Shown piece after piece: positions 3,130 to 10,564 of a stretch of 39,817 nt of DNA (position 1 is its first letter; every line of letters starts with the position of its first letter). Source of the DNA: Roseofilum halophilum BLCC-M91. GTDB taxonomy: Bacteria; Cyanobacteriota; Cyanobacteriia; Cyanobacteriales; Desertifilaceae. A program made the position numbers and the translations under genes. The notes under the pieces are model-generated. The model had not been told where the DNA came from, searched no databases, and saw only the letters and a list, made by a program, of their open reading frames with translations. The stretch is from NCBI RefSeq assembly GCF_030068445.1, contig NZ_JAQPOK010000032.1, positions 1 to 39,817 of the forward strand, in the 5' to 3' direction.

Positions 3130-4614
3130 ATGAGCAGTTTGGAACGTTTATCAAAAAAACAACGGGGCGCGATCGCTCTGTGGTATGAACGCATTATGGC
3201 GGCGATCGCCACCTTTAATTTAGCCCTAGTTGCCTTTGACATCAGTTATATCCAACTGCGTAACTTTTGGCTGCAAGGAACCATTCAAATTCCTTTCGTG
3301 GGCATCATTATTCAAGCCCCCATTCTCTCCGATTCCATCGATTCTTCTCCGGTGACAACTTGGTACGATCCCATCAAAGGCATCCAACCTAACCGAGATA
3401 CAGAAAACTATTTAGAAGTCGTCAGCGAGCTACAAATACAGGCTCAGAAAACCGGGTATGGATCGACTCAATCTCAAAGCATTTTAACTGAATTGCGAGA
3501 ATTAAGCGAACAAATGATCGATGAAAATCCTTTTCAGGGAGCCGATAAAAGCGGAACCTTGGAAAAGATCAAAAATCGAGCGCGAGATCATATGGGTGTA
3601 GAGTCTGCCAAAGAAGCCTTTAACCAATTTTGGACACCAGAAAACTTATTAAACAGTTCTGAAAATCCAGTCGAACTTTTTGATACAAAAATCGCTCCGT
3701 TAATGGCAACCAACTACTATCGCTCCATTGATGAAACCGGAGGATATACCAATCTATTTGCCGCCCTAGATTTTCCCTTTACTATTATATTCTTAGTCGA
3801 GTTCTTAGTTCGCAGTTTATACATTTCTCGCAAATACGATACGATTACCCTCACCGATGCCATGCTCTGGAGATGGTATGATATTGTGCTGTTTTTGCCT
3901 TTCTTTCGATGGTTGCGCGTTATTCCGGTCACCATCCGCCTACATCATGCCAAACTGATCAATTTAGAACCCATTCGCGCCCAACTGAGTCGAGGATTTG
4001 TGGCCACAATTGCCGGGGAACTGACCGAAGTAATTATTATTCGGGTCATTAATCAACTGCAAAATGAAGTCCGCAGTGGTTCCCTCGCGCGAGAATTATT
4101 TGAAGGAGCAAGCCGTGAATATATCGATCTCAATAATATTAACGAAATTGAAGCCATTACCAATCGCTTAACCGAAGTAATTATTTGTCAAGTCTTGCCC
4201 ACACTGCAACCGCAAATTCAACAAATCATCAACCATAATATCGAGCAAGTAGCTGAAGCCACCCCCTTCTATCAAAACGTCAAAAATATTCCGGCATTGT
4301 CCCAATATCCCCATCAATTGAGCCAACAAATTTCTGAGCAACTCTCCCGGTTAATTGCTGACGGCTCTCAAAATCTCTATGAAGCGATTAAAAATGACCA
4401 AGTGGGGGCAGAATTAATGAATCAATTGGCAGAAAGTTTTGGTAAATCTCTCAATGCCGAATTGCAACAAAAACATACTACCCAAGAACTCGAATCTCTC
4501 GTGAACGACTTTTTAGAAGAATTTAAGATTAATTATGTGCAACGCCTAGGAGAAGAAGATATTGAGAACATTTTAGAAGAAACCAAACGTCTGGAAAAAG
4601 GCAAGAAACGTTAA
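3130..4614 (+). CDS. Membrane protein with voltage-sensor-like helices
   Basis: I do not recognise a named family. The 494-residue protein has a hydrophobic helix at about 20-42, a long polar region (43-208), and two more helices at about 209-232 and 247-275. A long, mostly helical, soluble C-terminal half follows, rich in Gln, Glu and Leu. The helix at 215-233 carries E224 and R228 in the order LVEFLVR, as in the S2 helix of voltage-sensor domains. The next has D251 in WYDIVLFLPFF (S3-like), then arginines R260, R263 and R270 at near-regular spacing (S4-like). No pore helix or selectivity filter is present. It follows the transglutaminase gene by 31 bp. That it is a cyanobacterial membrane protein is secure; the voltage-sensor reading is inference. 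Confidence 0.7.
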   Translation: MSSLERLSKKQRGAIALWYERIMAAIATFNLALVAFDISYIQLRNFWLQGTIQIPFVGIIIQAPILSDSIDSSPVTTWYDPIKGIQPNRDTENYLEVVSELQIQAQKTGYGSTQSQSILTELRELSEQMIDENPFQGADKSGTLEKIKNRARDHMGVESAKEAFNQFWTPENLLNSSENPVELFDTKIAPLMATNYYRSIDETGGYTNLFAALDFPFTIIFLVEFLVRSLYISRKYDTITLTDAMLWRWYDIVLFLPFFRWLRVIPVTIRLHHAKLINLEPIRAQLSRGFVATIAGELTEVIIIRVINQLQNEVRSGSLARELFEGASREYIDLNNINEIEAITNRLTEVIICQVLPTLQPQIQQIINHNIEQVAEATPFYQNVKNIPALSQYPHQLSQQISEQLSRLIADGSQNLYEAIKNDQVGAELMNQLAESFGKSLNAELQQKHTTQELESLVNDFLEEFKINYVQRLGEEDIENILEETKRLEKGKKR

Positions 4615-4639
4615 CCCCATGGGCCAGAAAAGCAGAGGC

Positions 4640-4680
4640 TCTAGCGTAGGAGCGAGAAAATAGATTATAATCAAGAGTAA
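4640..4680 (+). promoter_or_regulatory. Candidate promoter for the rimP operon
   Basis: A consensus TATAAT lies at 4666-4671, in the only sizeable gap upstream of rimP. No good -35 hexamer is present 17 bp upstream, which is not unusual in cyanobacteria. A start near 4678 would give a leader of roughly 280 nt. Low to moderate confidence, because it rests on one hexamer. Confidence 0.4.
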
Positions 4681-4960
4681 CTGTGCTTGACTGGGAAAGG
4701 TGACTGAATCTCCCCGATCCAGACTCAAGTGGGTTCGATCAATGCATTCAAGATTCAGCTTGGCATTGAAGATCGTCTATCCTTTCTCCTGAAACCCCGA
4801 TCCCTAATCTCAGGGAGAGAAAATAGACGACTCACCATTGGGTGAGGTAATCTCCAGTCTATGGCTAGGGGCGATCGCCATAACGATCCTTCCCTAACCT
4901 CATCACAGACGCTTGAGTGGGAACTAACCCGCTTTTTTTTATGGCAGTACATGGTGTGTT
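4680..4960 (+). promoter_or_regulatory. Structured leader of rimP-nusA-ylxR-infB (candidate attenuator)
   Basis: This 345-bp gap (4615-4960) carries no credible gene but has dense secondary-structure potential. P1 pairs CTTGACTGG (4686-4694) with CCAGACTCAAG (4719-4729) around a two-base bulge. A long hairpin pairs TCGTCTATCC... (about 4773-4792) with ...AGAAAATAGACGA (about 4810-4830). Next is the perfect hairpin CTCACC-ATTG-GGTGAG (4831-4846), then TATGGC / GCCATA (about 4860-4882). An intrinsic terminator closes the leader at 4916-4940. ACTCAAG (4723-4729) is also perfectly complementary to CTTGAGT (4912-4918), which overlaps the 5' arm of the terminator. TGAGGT (4843-4848) can likewise pair with ACCTCA (4898-4903). 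Mutually exclusive pairings of this sort are what a transcription attenuator needs. The ligand or signal is unknown. Confidence 0.6.
4916..4940 (+). terminator. Intrinsic terminator 20 nt upstream of rimP
   Basis: The stem AGTGGG / CCCGCT (one G-U pair) encloses the loop AACTAA and is followed directly by eight T residues. There is no room for a promoter between the T tract and the rimP ATG at 4961, so operon transcripts must read through it. It is therefore better read as an attenuator than as the end of the gene that stops at 4614, 300 bp earlier. Confidence 0.7.
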
Positions 4961-5413
4961 ATGGTTCATCCTTTAATTCCACAAATTCTGGAGTTGGCTA
5001 CCCCAGTCGCCCAAAAACTGGGATTGGAAGTCGTTGGTGCGACCTTCCAAACCAACCAAAATCCGCCCGTATTGCGGGTTGATATTCGCAACCGCGATCG
5101 AGATACCGGGTTAGATGAGTGCGAACAAATGAGCCACCTCCTAGACACAGCCCTAGAAGAGAGTCAACTGATTACCCAATCCTATGTCTTGGAAATCTCC
5201 AGTCCTGGAATCTCCAAACGCCTAACCACAGACCGCGACTTTATAGCCTTTAAGGGATTTCCCGTGATCGTGATGACCGATCCCCCCTATAAGGATAAAT
5301 CCCAATGGCAAGGTACGCTCAATCGTCGCGATGAAACAAGCGTGTATCTCAACCAAAAAGGCCGCAATATTGCTATCCCTCGCGATCGGATTCTTTGGGT
5401 TGAGTTTTGTTAA
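4961..5413 (+). CDS. rimP: Ribosome maturation factor RimP
   Basis: RimP is needed for late assembly of the 30S ribosomal subunit, helping uS12 join the 16S central pseudoknot. The 150-residue product has the two-domain RimP layout. The N-terminal alpha/beta domain includes VLRVDIRN and the DECEQMSHLLD helix, followed by the family signature YVLEISSPGISKRL (about 85-98). A C-terminal Sm-like beta domain ends in RILWVEF. Length is typical. It is the first gene of the rimP-nusA-ylxR-infB operon, an order widely conserved in bacteria. The ATG at 4961 lies 20 nt after the terminator T tract, so its expression should depend on read-through. An earlier ATG at 4941 (ATGGCAGTAC) is in a different frame and is not used for this protein. 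Confidence 0.95.
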   Translation: MVHPLIPQILELATPVAQKLGLEVVGATFQTNQNPPVLRVDIRNRDRDTGLDECEQMSHLLDTALEESQLITQSYVLEISSPGISKRLTTDRDFIAFKGFPVIVMTDPPYKDKSQWQGTLNRRDETSVYLNQKGRNIAIPRDRILWVEFC

Positions 5414-5475: not shown

Positions 5476-6846
5476 ATGTCAATGGTTAACTTGCCTGGAC
5501 TCAAAAACTTAATTGAGAGTATCAGCAAAGAACGAAATTTACCCAAAACAGCAGTGCAAGCAGCCCTGAGAGAAGCCCTGATGAAGGGTTATGAACGCTA
5601 TCGCAAAGCGCAACACCTCAAAACCTTTGAGGAAGACTATTTTGATAACTTTGAAGTGGAACTCGATCTCGATGAAGAAGGGTTTCGGATTCTCTGCACG
5701 AAGGTGATTATGGAGGAAGTGGATAATTTCGATCATCAAATTTCCCTCAAAGAAGTGCAAGAAGTGGTCGATGAAGCCCAAATCGGTGAAACCGTGGTAT
5801 TGGATGTCACCCCAGATCAAGGGGACTTTGGGCGCATGGCAGCCATTCAAACGAAGCAGGTGTTAGCCCAAAAATTACGCGATCAACAGCGTAAGTTGAT
5901 TCAAGAAGAGTTTCAAGACCTCGAAGGAGAAGTGCTACAAGCGCGAGTATTGCGGTTTGAACGCCAATCCGTGATTCTGGCGGTTACCAGTGGCTATGGA
6001 CAGCCCGAAGTGGAGGCCGAGTTACCGAAACGGGAACAGTTGCCCAATGATAATTACCGCGCCAATGCCACGTTTAAGGTCTACCTGAAAAAAGTGGGAT
6101 CGGGTTCCCATCGGGGCCCCCAGTTGATGGTTTCTAGAGCCGATGCGGGTTTAGTGGTATACTTGTTTGAAAATGAAGTCCCAGAAATTGAGGATGAGGT
6201 GGTGCGGATTGTGGCCGTAGCCAGAGAAGCCAATCCCCCCTCCCGTTATGTGGGGCCTCGAACCAAAATTGCCGTGGATACGTTGGAGCGGGATGTAGAC
6301 CCCGTGGGCGCTTGTATTGGGGCGCGAGGATCGCGGATACAGGTGGTGGTCAATGAACTGCGGGGAGAAAAGATAGATGTGATTCGTTGGTCTCCCGATC
6401 CAGCGACCTATATCGCCAATGCTTTGAGTCCGGCACGGGTAGATGCGGTCTATTTAATCGACCCCGAAGTGCGCCAAGCCCATGTGTTGGTGGCCGAAGA
6501 TCAGTTAAGTTTAGCCATTGGAAAGGAGGGGCAAAATGTCCGTTTAGCAGCTCGATTAACGGGCTGGAAAATTGATATTAAAGATGGGGCGCTTTATGAT
6601 GCAACCGCCGAACATCAGAAAATGGCGGCGATTATTGAAGCTCGCCATGAAGCCGAAGGTCAATCAGAGGAAGCCTTAGAGGAATCTGCTGAGGAATCTT
6701 TAGAAGAGAGAATATCGGTTGAGACTCCGGTGGAAGATTCTTTAGATCCAGAGGAAGATTCCTCAGAAGTCGCAGAATTAGTAGAATTAGAAGAGGAGGA
6801 TGTCATTGCACAAGAGGAGGAGGAAGAAGAGGAAGAGAACGCATAA
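5476..6846 (+). CDS. nusA: Transcription termination/antitermination factor NusA
   Basis: NusA binds RNA polymerase and nascent RNA and modulates pausing, intrinsic termination and antitermination. The 456-residue product has the N-terminal polymerase-binding domain (1 to about 125, starting NLPGLKNLIESISKERNLPK), an S1 RNA-binding domain (about 135-205), and KH1 and KH2. KH1 has DPVGACIGARGSRI and KH2 has AIGKEGQNVRLAARLTGWKIDI. Instead of the C-terminal acidic repeats of enterobacteria it ends in a low-complexity tail of Glu/Asp/Ser (about 395-456) with a run of glutamates. It follows rimP by 62 bp. Because the operon leader contains an intrinsic terminator, NusA could affect its own synthesis; that is inference. 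Alternative initiation at Met3 would change only two residues. Confidence 0.97.
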   Translation: MSMVNLPGLKNLIESISKERNLPKTAVQAALREALMKGYERYRKAQHLKTFEEDYFDNFEVELDLDEEGFRILCTKVIMEEVDNFDHQISLKEVQEVVDEAQIGETVVLDVTPDQGDFGRMAAIQTKQVLAQKLRDQQRKLIQEEFQDLEGEVLQARVLRFERQSVILAVTSGYGQPEVEAELPKREQLPNDNYRANATFKVYLKKVGSGSHRGPQLMVSRADAGLVVYLFENEVPEIEDEVVRIVAVAREANPPSRYVGPRTKIAVDTLERDVDPVGACIGARGSRIQVVVNELRGEKIDVIRWSPDPATYIANALSPARVDAVYLIDPEVRQAHVLVAEDQLSLAIGKEGQNVRLAARLTGWKIDIKDGALYDATAEHQKMAAIIEARHEAEGQSEEALEESAEESLEERISVETPVEDSLDPEEDSSEVAELVELEEEDVIAQEEEEEEEENA

Positions 6847-6880: not shown

Positions 6881-7174
6881 ATGAAGCCGAATCAACGCCG
6901 TTGTGTCAGTTGCCGAAAAGTAGATCGCAAACAAGCCTTTTGGCGAATTGTCCGAGTTTATCCGGATGATGAGATCCAATTGGATGAAGGCATGGGGCGC
7001 TCGGCTTATTTGTGTCCCCAAGGGGATTGTTTGAAAGCGGCTCAAAAAAAGAATCGATTGGGGCGATCGCTCAAAGCGTCTGTTCCCCCGTCGGTCTATG
7101 AGAGGCTCTGGTCTCGTTTACAAGCAGTTGATGACCCCTCACATTCACAGCCGAGGCCAAAATCAGAGCCATAA
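6881..7174 (+). CDS. ylxR: YlxR family RNA-binding protein
   Basis: A small basic protein of the YlxR (DUF448) family, found almost always between nusA and infB and believed to act in RNA-linked processes; some members affect RNase P or gene regulation. The 97-residue product has the family signatures RRCVSCR (residues 6-12) and GRSAYLC (about 39-45), followed by a Lys/Arg-rich helix. The four cysteines (8, 11, 45, 50) resemble a degenerate metal site. The C-terminal 15 residues are polar and probably disordered. It starts at the ATG at 6881, 34 bp after nusA, with the 20-bp palindrome in between. About 195 bp separate it from infB, which is wide for this operon. Confidence 0.92.
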   Translation: MKPNQRRCVSCRKVDRKQAFWRIVRVYPDDEIQLDEGMGRSAYLCPQGDCLKAAQKKNRLGRSLKASVPPSVYERLWSRLQAVDDPSHSQPRPKSEP

Positions 7175-7369
7175 AGGGCGATCGCTAATCTTCTGGATAG
7201 GAAATTTCTAAAAATCATAACAATCTCTCCAGTTGTTTAACGATTTGTGCAAGATTAAATAGAGAAGCGTAGATCGCCTCAGTGGCGATCGCTTCCGTCC
7301 CTGTAGTTGTCGTCGAAAGGCAGGCCACTATGTAAAACCCAGTCGATATCACAAAAGAGGCAAGTGTGG

Positions 7370-10300
7370 ATGAACAACGGCAAAGTCAGAATATACGAGC
7401 TATCCAAGGAATTGAATTTGGACAATCATTACGTTTTAAATCTTTGCGACCAATTGAATATCACGTACAAAAGTCATAGCAGTACCATATCCGAATCTGA
7501 AGCAGAGCGGATTCGTGCTTGGGCTGAAAAACATCCCCCCAGCGAAACCTCACCAGGAAAACCAACTCATCATCGCTCCAAATCTCAGGGGAGCGAAAAA
7601 CCCATTAAGAAGAAAAAACAACAAATCCTAGAAGTTCGCAGACATTCCTCTGAGACAGACAAAGGGACTCCATCAGCAACAGATGCACCCCGTGACACAT
7701 CAGACGATGCCCTTTCCCTGCAATCTCCTCCGTTGCGACCTTCACCTGCGCTGAAATCGTCTCCACCCACTCCTCCCGTTGACCCCGATCCGCAACCTCA
7801 AGAACCAGAGGTTTCTCCCCGTCCACCGGAAAAAACCCCAGCTCAAGAGAGTACCCAACCCTCCTCCGAGTCACCATCTAGGGATACAACTCCAACCCCA
7901 TCCATGTCTGATGAAGATCAAAAAACAGAACTGATTGGCCCTCCGGTGCGCCCAACTTCACCCACGAAGGTCGCCAAAACGGATGAGAACACTGCCCCAG
8001 AAGTCTCTGAGGGAACCGTTAGTCCATCCCCTGCGCCAGAGACCCAGCCGGCCAAAACGAATAAATCGCCTAAACCGCCGCGATTGAAGCGATCTGGAAA
8101 CGGGTCGAAATCCGAAAGTGCTGAGACCAAGAAACCTCAAGGAAATAAGCCGATTATCCTCAAAGACAAAGAAAGTGGAAAAGCGGAAAAACCCGGTGGG
8201 GCTAAAAAAGGACAACGTTCTTCAGGATCGGGTGATGTAGTTGCCGTGGGCACGAAATCGAAAAAGTCCTCGAAACCCGATACTCAGAAAGAGAAATCCT
8301 CCGATCCTTTGCGCCCCCGTCCAGTGCGACCTGGAGAATCGACCAAGGGTAAAACTGAAAATTCAGATGACGAAGATCTCCAGATCGATCCTCTGGAAAA
8401 CTCAGAACCAGAGGAAGAACTGGAATTGGAATTAAGACGGCCGATGCCTCGACCCACTAAAAAAGTGAAGAAACGGTCAGAGGAAGAAGAAGATGACGAG
8501 CGGCAAAAGTTGAATGCTAAATCCGGTAAAGGGGTGACCAAAAAACGCCGTCCTCATATTATTGAGGATGATTTAGACGACGATCTAGATGACGAGAGCG
8601 AGGATGGTGATAGCGCCACAGAAGTGAGCCTATCCCTGGCGCGTCCGGCTAAACCGAAAGGCCCCTCTACGTCCCCTCCGAAACCCACAGGAACTCCAGT
8701 CACCAAGAAGCGATCGCCCAGTCAACAGCGAGATAACAATAGAAGCCGACGGATGGGCAATAAAGGGCCAGAGAAAGCCGAGAAACCTGAAAAAATCACC
8801 CTCAAAGGTGAATTAATGGTGCGGGAATTGGCCACTTTATTGGCAGTTGCGGAAACCGAAGTGGTTAAACGCTTATTCAACAAAGGTATTGCAGCCACTG
8901 TAACCCAAACCTTAGATCTGGAAACAGCCATCTGGGTGAGCGAAGATTTAGGGGTAGAAGTGGAAACACCGGCTGCCGAATCGGAAGCGAAGAAAACCCA
9001 GATGCTCGAAGAAGGAGACTTGGAACATCTCCATCGCCGACCCCCAGTGGTCACGATTATGGGCCATGTGGATCATGGAAAAACTACGCTCCTGGATGCC
9101 ATTCGCAAAACCAAGATTGTCGATTCGGAAGCCGGTGGTATTACCCAACATATCGGGGCGTATCATGTGGACGTGGAGCATGACGAGAAAACCCAGCAAA
9201 TCGTCTTTTTAGATACGCCGGGTCATGAAGCCTTTACCGCCATGCGGGCCAGAGGAACCAAGGTTACTGATATTGCTATTTTAGTGGTAGCTGCCGATGA
9301 TGGGGTTCGTCCTCAAACCATTGAAGCGATTAGCCATGCTAAAGCGGCCGAAGTGCCCATTGTGGTTGCCATTAACAAGATTGATAAGGAAGGGGCTTCT
9401 CCCGATCGCGTCAAACAGGAGTTGATGGAACATGGTTTGGTTCCCGAAGAATGGGGCGGCGATACCATTATGGTTCCCGTGAGCGCAATTCAGGGTGAAA
9501 ACTTAGATGGTTTGTTGGAAATGCTGCTTCTGGTCTCCGAAATAGAAGAACTCTCTGCTAATCCCGATCGCCTGGCACGAGGCACTATTATTGAAGCCCA
9601 TTTGGATAAATCTAGAGGCCCCGTAGCCACCTTATTGGTGCAAAACGGAACCCTGCGGGTTGGCGATGCCGTAGTCGCTGGAGCCACCATGGGTAAAGTC
9701 CGCGCCATGGTAGATGACCGAGGCGAACGAGTCGAAGAAGCCCTCCCCTCCTTTGCAGTTGAGGTGTTAGGTCTGAGCGAACTGCCCTCAGCCGGGGATG
9801 AGTTTGAATGTATGGCCGAAGAAAAAGAAGCGCGGGCGATCGCCAATTCTCGCGCGGCTGACCAACGGGAAACCCGTCTACAACAAGCACTCGCCTCTCG
9901 TCGCGTTACCCTCAGCTCCCTAAGTGCCAAAGTCCAAGAAGGAGAACTCAAGGAACTCAACCTCGTCTTGAAAGCCGATGTTCAAGGATCGGTAGAAGCC
10001 ATTCTCGGCTCCTTGCAACAACTGCCTCAAAATGAAGTTCAACTGCGTATCCTTCTCGCCGCAGCCGGTGAAGTGACCGAAACGGACGTGGATCTAGCGG
10101 CTGCCTCCAATGCCGTCATTATTGCCTTTAATACCACCTTTGCCAGTGGCGCTCGTGCAGCCGCCGATCAAACCGGGGTAGATGTACGGGAATATGACAT
10201 TATCTATAACCTCTTAGATGATATCGAAGGGGCAATGGAAGGTCTGCTCGATCCAGAACTGGTGGAAGAAGAACTCGGCCAGGTGGAAGTCCGAGCCGTA

Positions 10301-10564
10301 TTTGCCATCGGCAAAGGATCGGTCGCTGGATGTTATGTGCTATCCGGTAAAGCCATCCGTAACTGTAATTTGCGGGTACTCCGTGGCCAAAACGTCATTT
10401 ACGAAGGATTCCTTGATTCCCTGCGTCGGGAACGGGATGACGTAAAAGAAGTGAATGCTGGTTTTGAATGCGGCATCGGGGTGGATAAGTTCACCACTTG
10501 GCAAGTTGGCGATCTAATCCACACCTATCGCATGGTGACCAAACGGCGAACCTTGTCGAGCTAG
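7370..10564 (+). CDS. infB: Translation initiation factor IF-2
   Basis: IF-2 is the GTPase that brings initiator fMet-tRNA to the 30S subunit and promotes subunit joining. I place the start at the ATG at 7370 ([17 protein letters not shown]), preceded by AGAGG at 7356-7360; the frame also stays open to a TTG at 7307, but that start has no support. The product is 1,064 residues. It begins with an IF2_N motif (about 1-50) and continues with roughly 430 low-complexity residues rich in Pro, Lys, Ser and Glu. A second IF2_N-like domain (about 475-525) comes next, then the GTPase domain with P-loop GHVDHGKT at about 565-572, DTPGHEAF and NKID. Domains II, III and IV follow, with [15 protein letters not shown]-type and KFTTWQVGD motifs. 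The N-terminal linker is much longer than in Escherichia coli, as is usual in cyanobacteria. Confidence 0.97.

Follow-up and report, generated by a model that had tools for sequence, protein, structure and literature searches.

Downstream of a 346 nt gap (4615–4960), four genes are arranged as rimP-nusA-ylxR-infB in the window, by which we mean the whole stretch of DNA analysed (39,817 nucleotides from Roseofilum halophilum BLCC-M91). This locus raises the question whether the gap holds a transcription attenuator for the operon and, if so, which signal such an attenuator may read. The RimP protein of the window has its best named match in R. acuticapitatum (94% identity). The genes of the operon are:

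4961–5413, forward strand: rimP (Pfam RimP_N, 5.6e-14)
5476–6846, forward strand: nusA (Pfam NusA_N and NusA-like KH)
6881–7174, forward strand: ylxR (Pfam YlxR, 5.7e-24)
7307–10564, forward strand: infB, encoding IF2 (Pfam IF-2 and GTP_EFTU; the start is the mechanical ORF start)

The original prediction placed an intrinsic terminator with a 6 bp stem and 8 T before the start codon of rimP. Sequence and a terminator scan confirm this; the terminator in the window is real and correctly placed, with 20 nt between the end of the T tract and the ATG at 4961:

4916–4933, forward strand: terminator hairpin AGTGGG-AACTAA-CCCGCT (pattern and terminator scan; same terminator in 112 of 131 leaders, see below)
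4933–4940, forward strand: T tract of the intrinsic terminator, 8 T (sequence and terminator scan)
4941–4960, forward strand: spacer to rimP; its first four letters, ATGG, correspond to an RTTG conserved among the leaders

The stem consists of the pairs A4916-U4933, G4917-C4932, U4918·G4931, G4919-C4930, G4920-C4929 and G4921-C4928, closed by the loop AACUAA. Taken alone, this hairpin is weak (−7.8 kcal/mol, with a median of −8.7 kcal/mol among the representatives defined below).

Conservation was assessed on 153 loci, of which 16 had no rimP alignment (among them L027, which is no rimP locus). This left 137 leaders and, after subtraction of 6 duplicates, 131 distinct rimP leaders. These are not independent, and 63 representatives (<80% similarity) were used in the antiterminator, boxA/word and promoter-box screens. 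Counts on spacer, stem, antiterminator, promoter box and the loose Anabaena-type motif refer only to leaders matching the terminator expression; the leader sets collected by RimP similarity and the sequence-free terminator finder did not require this expression. L109 was omitted from alignment A1, and L093 (row identical to L083) from alignment A3.

Among the leaders collected by RimP similarity, most of the rows displayed have a terminator before rimP. With the terminator expression, the same terminator is found within 300 nt of rimP in 112 of the 131 distinct leaders; the 19 leaders that miss the expression include four degenerate variants (L008, L009, L011 and L097). Three of these (L008, L009, L011) come from one genus of the same family and carry a degenerate GAGGGTAAATACCCGC followed by 8 T, 35 nt before rimP. 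A finder without sequence requirement located 114 terminator sites in the rimP leaders of the 131 loci and 7 elsewhere in the same loci. At genome scale, the strict pattern AGTGGGN{3,9}CCCRCTTTTTT has 41 matches in 39 related genomes versus 1 for the reversed pattern, which is far beyond chance. Comparison of coordinates with the places of RimP puts 33 matches, one per genome, just upstream of rimP. Of the 34 genomes that contain the strict pattern, only G010 departs from this; the other 5 of the 39 relatives lack it (G007, G008, G009, G023, G038).

A looser pattern, counted genome-wide, gave 108 matches in 72 genomes of the class of the window (13 matches in other classes were left out); in 57 of these genomes a match falls in the 300 nt upstream of rimP, and 51 matches are located elsewhere in the 72 genomes. 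It is missing near rimP in 15 of the 72 (G010, G138, G077, G087, G154, G075, G067, G107, G111 and all six of family f39), and the valve is therefore dispensable. In G010, the match on the rimP contig (C113:9097-9117) shares the strand of rimP but lies 1.6 kb upstream, which would fit an insertion between attenuator and rimP. Family f39 (L132–L137) consists of small genomes with the pattern near rimP in none of the six examined, and may have lost the attenuator. In other classes of the phylum, a GAGTGGG..CCC[AG]CT hairpin occupies the same region in L138, L139, L142, L148, L149 and L151, mostly with poorer T tracts (nearness to rimP judged from coordinates); it is absent from all three members of f40 and all seven of f41 examined.

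A terminator at this place could in principle belong to the gene upstream or act as an insulator, with rimP read from a promoter of its own downstream of it. In the window, the ORF at 3130–4614 upstream of the leader (494 aa; no Pfam match at E≤0.001) is co-directional with rimP, which would suit this explanation, as would the TANNNT found within the spacer in 30 of 112 leaders. However, in 95 of 112 leaders no more than 27 nt separate the T tract from the ATG (median spacer 15 nt), so that little room is left for a promoter downstream of the terminator; as a candidate, a promoter within this spacer was rejected because the spacer is too short in most leaders. In four loci, moreover, the terminator is kept next to divergent upstream genes, whose starts lie 287, 247, 141 and 403 nt upstream (L018, L025, L074 and L116, respectively); by Pfam, these neighbours are a CDP-alcohol phosphatidyltransferase, a PTPS, a zinc dehydrogenase and a Uma2 protein. 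At these loci, the terminator is hard to explain as that of the upstream gene.

Promoter-like boxes upstream of the terminator point the same way. In the window, the corresponding features are:

4666–4671, forward strand: TATAAT, likely the −10 box of the operon promoter (invariant in 5 aligned Roseofilum leaders, in an alignment begun at the box)
4678–4915, forward strand: upstream part of the leader RNA, with predicted genus-level hairpins (e.g. 4775–4828, and CTCACC/GGTGAG at 4831–4846)

A sigma-70 scan missed this TATAAT, as it has no good −35 box; from its position we infer a start site near 4678. Across the 63 representatives, GCTANACT-like boxes lie 30–250 nt upstream of the terminator on the sense strand in 26, 16 of them 50–65 nt before GTGGG. 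On the other strand there are 2, and shuffles gave a mean of 2.1 and a maximum of 5; the GCTANACT pattern had been chosen after enriched words were seen in the same set, and reverse strand and shuffles are therefore the fair comparison. With divergent neighbours such as those above, the terminator most likely acts on transcripts entering rimP; a plain terminator or insulator is very unlikely.

The leader between promoter and terminator had been described in the original prediction as holding several strong hairpins and two alternative long-range pairings that might switch the terminator. The whole 346 nt gap does fold well (−109.9 kcal/mol, z −1.98), yet 4 of 100 shuffles were as good, so that the hairpins are only modestly beyond chance. 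Likewise, both pairings form in the window: ACTCAAG (4723–4729) matches CTTGAGT (4912–4918) in 7 of 7 positions, and TGAGGT (4843–4848) matches ACCTCA in 6 of 6, the latter partner being located at 4897–4902, one base off the 4898–4903 first given. Yet in the four other aligned Roseofilum genomes the first pairing reaches 5 or 6 of 7 and the second 2 of 6, so that they are fully formed in one of five genomes only; since they are incomplete in the other four, a switch by these long-range pairings is not supported. A sixth member of the genus (L006) was left out of this comparison as too diverged upstream of the terminator.

Within the five-genome Roseofilum alignment, 130 of the 240 positions in columns 1–240 are invariant, as are 57 of 60 in columns 241–300, from the terminator to the start codon. 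The consensus fold has 79 pairs, of which 2 show two-sided change, and its covariation term is unfavourable. A screen for antiterminators over the 63 representatives stayed at chance level (6 of 63 at p≤0.1, mean excess −0.03); no antiterminator is conserved across this set. As another candidate, a boxA (NusB/S10 site) was rejected, since the leaders are no nearer to boxA-like words taken from the rRNA of the loci than shuffles are (mean mismatches 4.83 versus 4.77).

The length of this leader and its somewhat better fold than that of shuffles might suggest a metabolite riboswitch with an aptamer in 4678–4910. On the other hand, the leader has no Rfam match at gathering scores (at E≤10 there are three weak matches to miRNA families, on the other strand), and outside the genus the sequence upstream of the terminator is not alignable by eye. 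Neither the Rfam families nor the genus alignment revealed a conserved aptamer with covariation. We regard a riboswitch as extremely improbable.

A two-state attenuator would be another matter: here an upstream antiterminator would pair with the 5′ arm of the terminator, and an RNA-binding factor (a ribosome-assembly protein, an RNA chaperone or a cold-shock factor) would choose the state. The leaders that come closest to this are of the Anabaena type, namely L088 (family f17) and 18 members of f31, the family that includes Anabaena sp. 4-3. Four features are common to these 19 leaders: the terminator, a promoter box, a ACTTCTTGGAAGATATC stretch that hardly varies, and a 5′ hairpin in which one pair shows two-sided change (C-G/U-A, in 7 of 19). 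The ACTTCTTGGAAGATATC stretch can pair with the 5′ arm of the terminator. In all 19, ACTTCTTG..CAGGAAGT is nearly invariant, and RNAalifold favours it over the lower terminator stem; in L109, one pair of this hairpin is kept by a two-sided change (one row). In L030 (2893–2987) and the 18 other leaders of alignment A3, the near-invariant ACTTCTTGGAAGATATC..CAGGAAGT hairpin competes with the terminator. Predicted folds give the upstream hairpin for L030 RNA that ends before the 3′ arm and the terminator for L030 at full length. Full-length L080 and L095 likewise give the terminator, but L012 and L017, members of other families, retain the upstream hairpin at full length. The motif is present in a loose form in 32 of 112 leaders.

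Several observations weigh against a two-state attenuator. It is not seen in Roseofilum, where the predicted pairings are not conserved, and complementarity over the 63 representatives is no better than in shuffles. The loose motif comprises 11 distinct arm pairs whose changes are mostly one-sided, and the Anabaena-type antiterminator therefore stays a candidate. For the operon of the window, a two-state attenuator seems rather unlikely.

What is conserved in the terminator itself is mainly its letters. Over 59 distinct rows with a stem of 9 pairs, 94.4% of cells are paired; 4 pairs are invariant, 3 vary on one side and 2 show a single two-sided change each. Part of this invariance is built in by motif selection of the rows (GTGGG and CC.C are invariant by construction, because the rows were selected by the expression), and the G-rich arm is the same with the sequence-free finder. 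The inner pair varies among the 59 rows (UA 18, UG 18, AU 1, other 22; A..A in the window). Covariation of the stem is no better than in shuffles, because the stem barely varies: two-sided change at 2 of 9 pairs was reached by 41 of 500 shuffles, and the score by 349 of 500. The stem stays paired chiefly through conservation of the letters themselves. This points to recognition of the sequence, as Naville and Gautheret (2010) also argued for the rimP-leader family.

Conservation extends past the T tract. The four positions following it read RTTG among the 63 representatives (A/G in 63, T in 57, T in 54, G in 52), and RTTG is conserved although its distance to rimP varies; it also follows the T tract in L099 and L094, whose rimP genes begin 172 and 230 nt farther downstream. 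As the spacing varies, a conserved reading frame from RTTG is unlikely, and RTTG may act in the transcription complex. A leader peptide starting from an NTG after the T tract was rejected: frames relative to rimP are 25/24/12 (61 of 63 representatives), spacer length varies freely and stops are not conserved. Because the end of the T tract itself forms part of the start word in 22 of the 61, the NTG counts are not relied on here.

If the sequence is recognised, the binder may be NusA, or else the GGG/CCC stem may be read by another factor, for example a ribosomal protein, NusG or RimP. Letters kept beyond pairing, as in the TGGG adjoining the loop at 110 of 114 sequence-free terminator sites of rimP leaders, would fit any specific binder, and feedback by RimP was also raised in the discussion by Naville and Gautheret (2010; PMC2965389). 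Against this, the literature passages on this operon report its control by NusA in Bacillus subtilis and Escherichia coli and name no other binder. We consider recognition by a factor other than NusA unlikely.

Known systems provide the closest guide to NusA. The rimP-leader, as presented by Naville and Gautheret (2010; PMC2965389), is a terminator with a GGG/CCC stem and no visible antiterminator, for which NusA was proposed as effector. The element described here resembles that account in being an intrinsic terminator in the 5′ leader of rimP-nusA-infB (112 of 131 leaders; Pfam in the window); in a G-rich 5′ arm and C-rich 3′ arm forming a GGG(...)CCC stem with a T stretch; in its distance of 4–130 nt from the gene start (20 nt in the window, and at most 130 nt in 110 of 112 leaders); in the lack of a general antiterminator (screen of 63 representatives at chance level, with f31 as possible exception); and in a motif specific to rimP. 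It differs in that the inner c..g of the published GGGc..gCCC (lower case in the paper) is not kept, whereas the outer AGT/RCT and the following RTTG are conserved in cyanobacteria. The Rfam model RF01770 (‘rimP’) has a gene context that is alike by name. None of the 39 genomes reaches its cut-off of 47 bits or has a listed match at rimP, and there is none in the window; among 14 control genomes only 1 exceeds the cut-off, and the model is therefore narrow.

In B. subtilis, NusA is described as autoregulated by NusA-stimulated termination in its own leader (Mondal et al., 2016, as summarised in a review). The terminator in a nusA operon leader is common to both systems, and an antiterminator was not found here either; NusA dependence is reported for B. 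subtilis and putative for cyanobacteria. For E. coli, two terminators upstream of rimP are reported, and operon transcripts rise when termination by NusA is reduced. The E. coli metY-rimP-nusA leader (L155) contains CTGGGCTTTAGGCCCTTTTTTTATG before rimP, has CTGGGCTTTAGGCCC followed by 7 T and ATG, and carries ATG at the place of RTTG; it differs by a tRNA gene upstream, tandem terminators and the presence of Rho. Cyanobacteria are described as lacking Rho. In a 2026 study on Synechococcus elongatus (PMC13289151), NusA stimulated two intrinsic terminators in vitro, and intrinsic termination was credited with only 22% of transcription units.

The original prediction knew of no named riboregulator of this form for cyanobacteria. 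Among the best matches listed we likewise found no cyanobacterial description of a rimP-leader attenuator (supplementary species lists of the 2010 paper aside), and ‘cyanobacteri’, ‘Synechoc’ and ‘Nostoc’ do not occur in the main text of that paper; in other bacteria, however, the form does have a name. The element is best classed with the rimP-leader family, which it resembles in the way it would work, as a representative from cyanobacteria.

Based on this dataset, we favour NusA feedback through the intrinsic terminator before rimP-nusA-ylxR-infB, with a probability of roughly two thirds. Transcription of the operon would start upstream of 4916 and meet the short terminator at 4916–4940 before rimP. 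In part of the rounds, RNA polymerase would stop there and release a short leader RNA; read-through would lead to expression of the operon. NusA, the product of the second gene, would strengthen the weak hairpin and thereby set the stop, such that high NusA would lower the operon and low NusA would raise it. An antiterminator would not be needed. Conservation, position, promoter-like boxes and literature support a putative attenuator inside the operon transcript, and the action of NusA on it we infer by analogy. The suggested attenuator with NusA as likely effector is thus upheld at this level, but its switch by long-range pairing is not. A bolder version is doubtful in our view: cyanobacteria would possess a sequence-frozen NusA sensor that includes the DNA past the T tract (RTTG), which in Anabaena-type leaders and some relatives would be a true two-state switch, with the ACTTCTTG..CAGGAAGT antiterminator between promoter and terminator reading a further cue, for instance cold or the assembly of ribosomes.

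NusA feedback at this place would extend the rimP-leader to a phylum that lacks Rho and in which intrinsic termination is important. In model strains, it would offer a compact and testable candidate for how NusA levels are kept steady, and the cyanobacterial consensus could broaden the narrow Rfam model.
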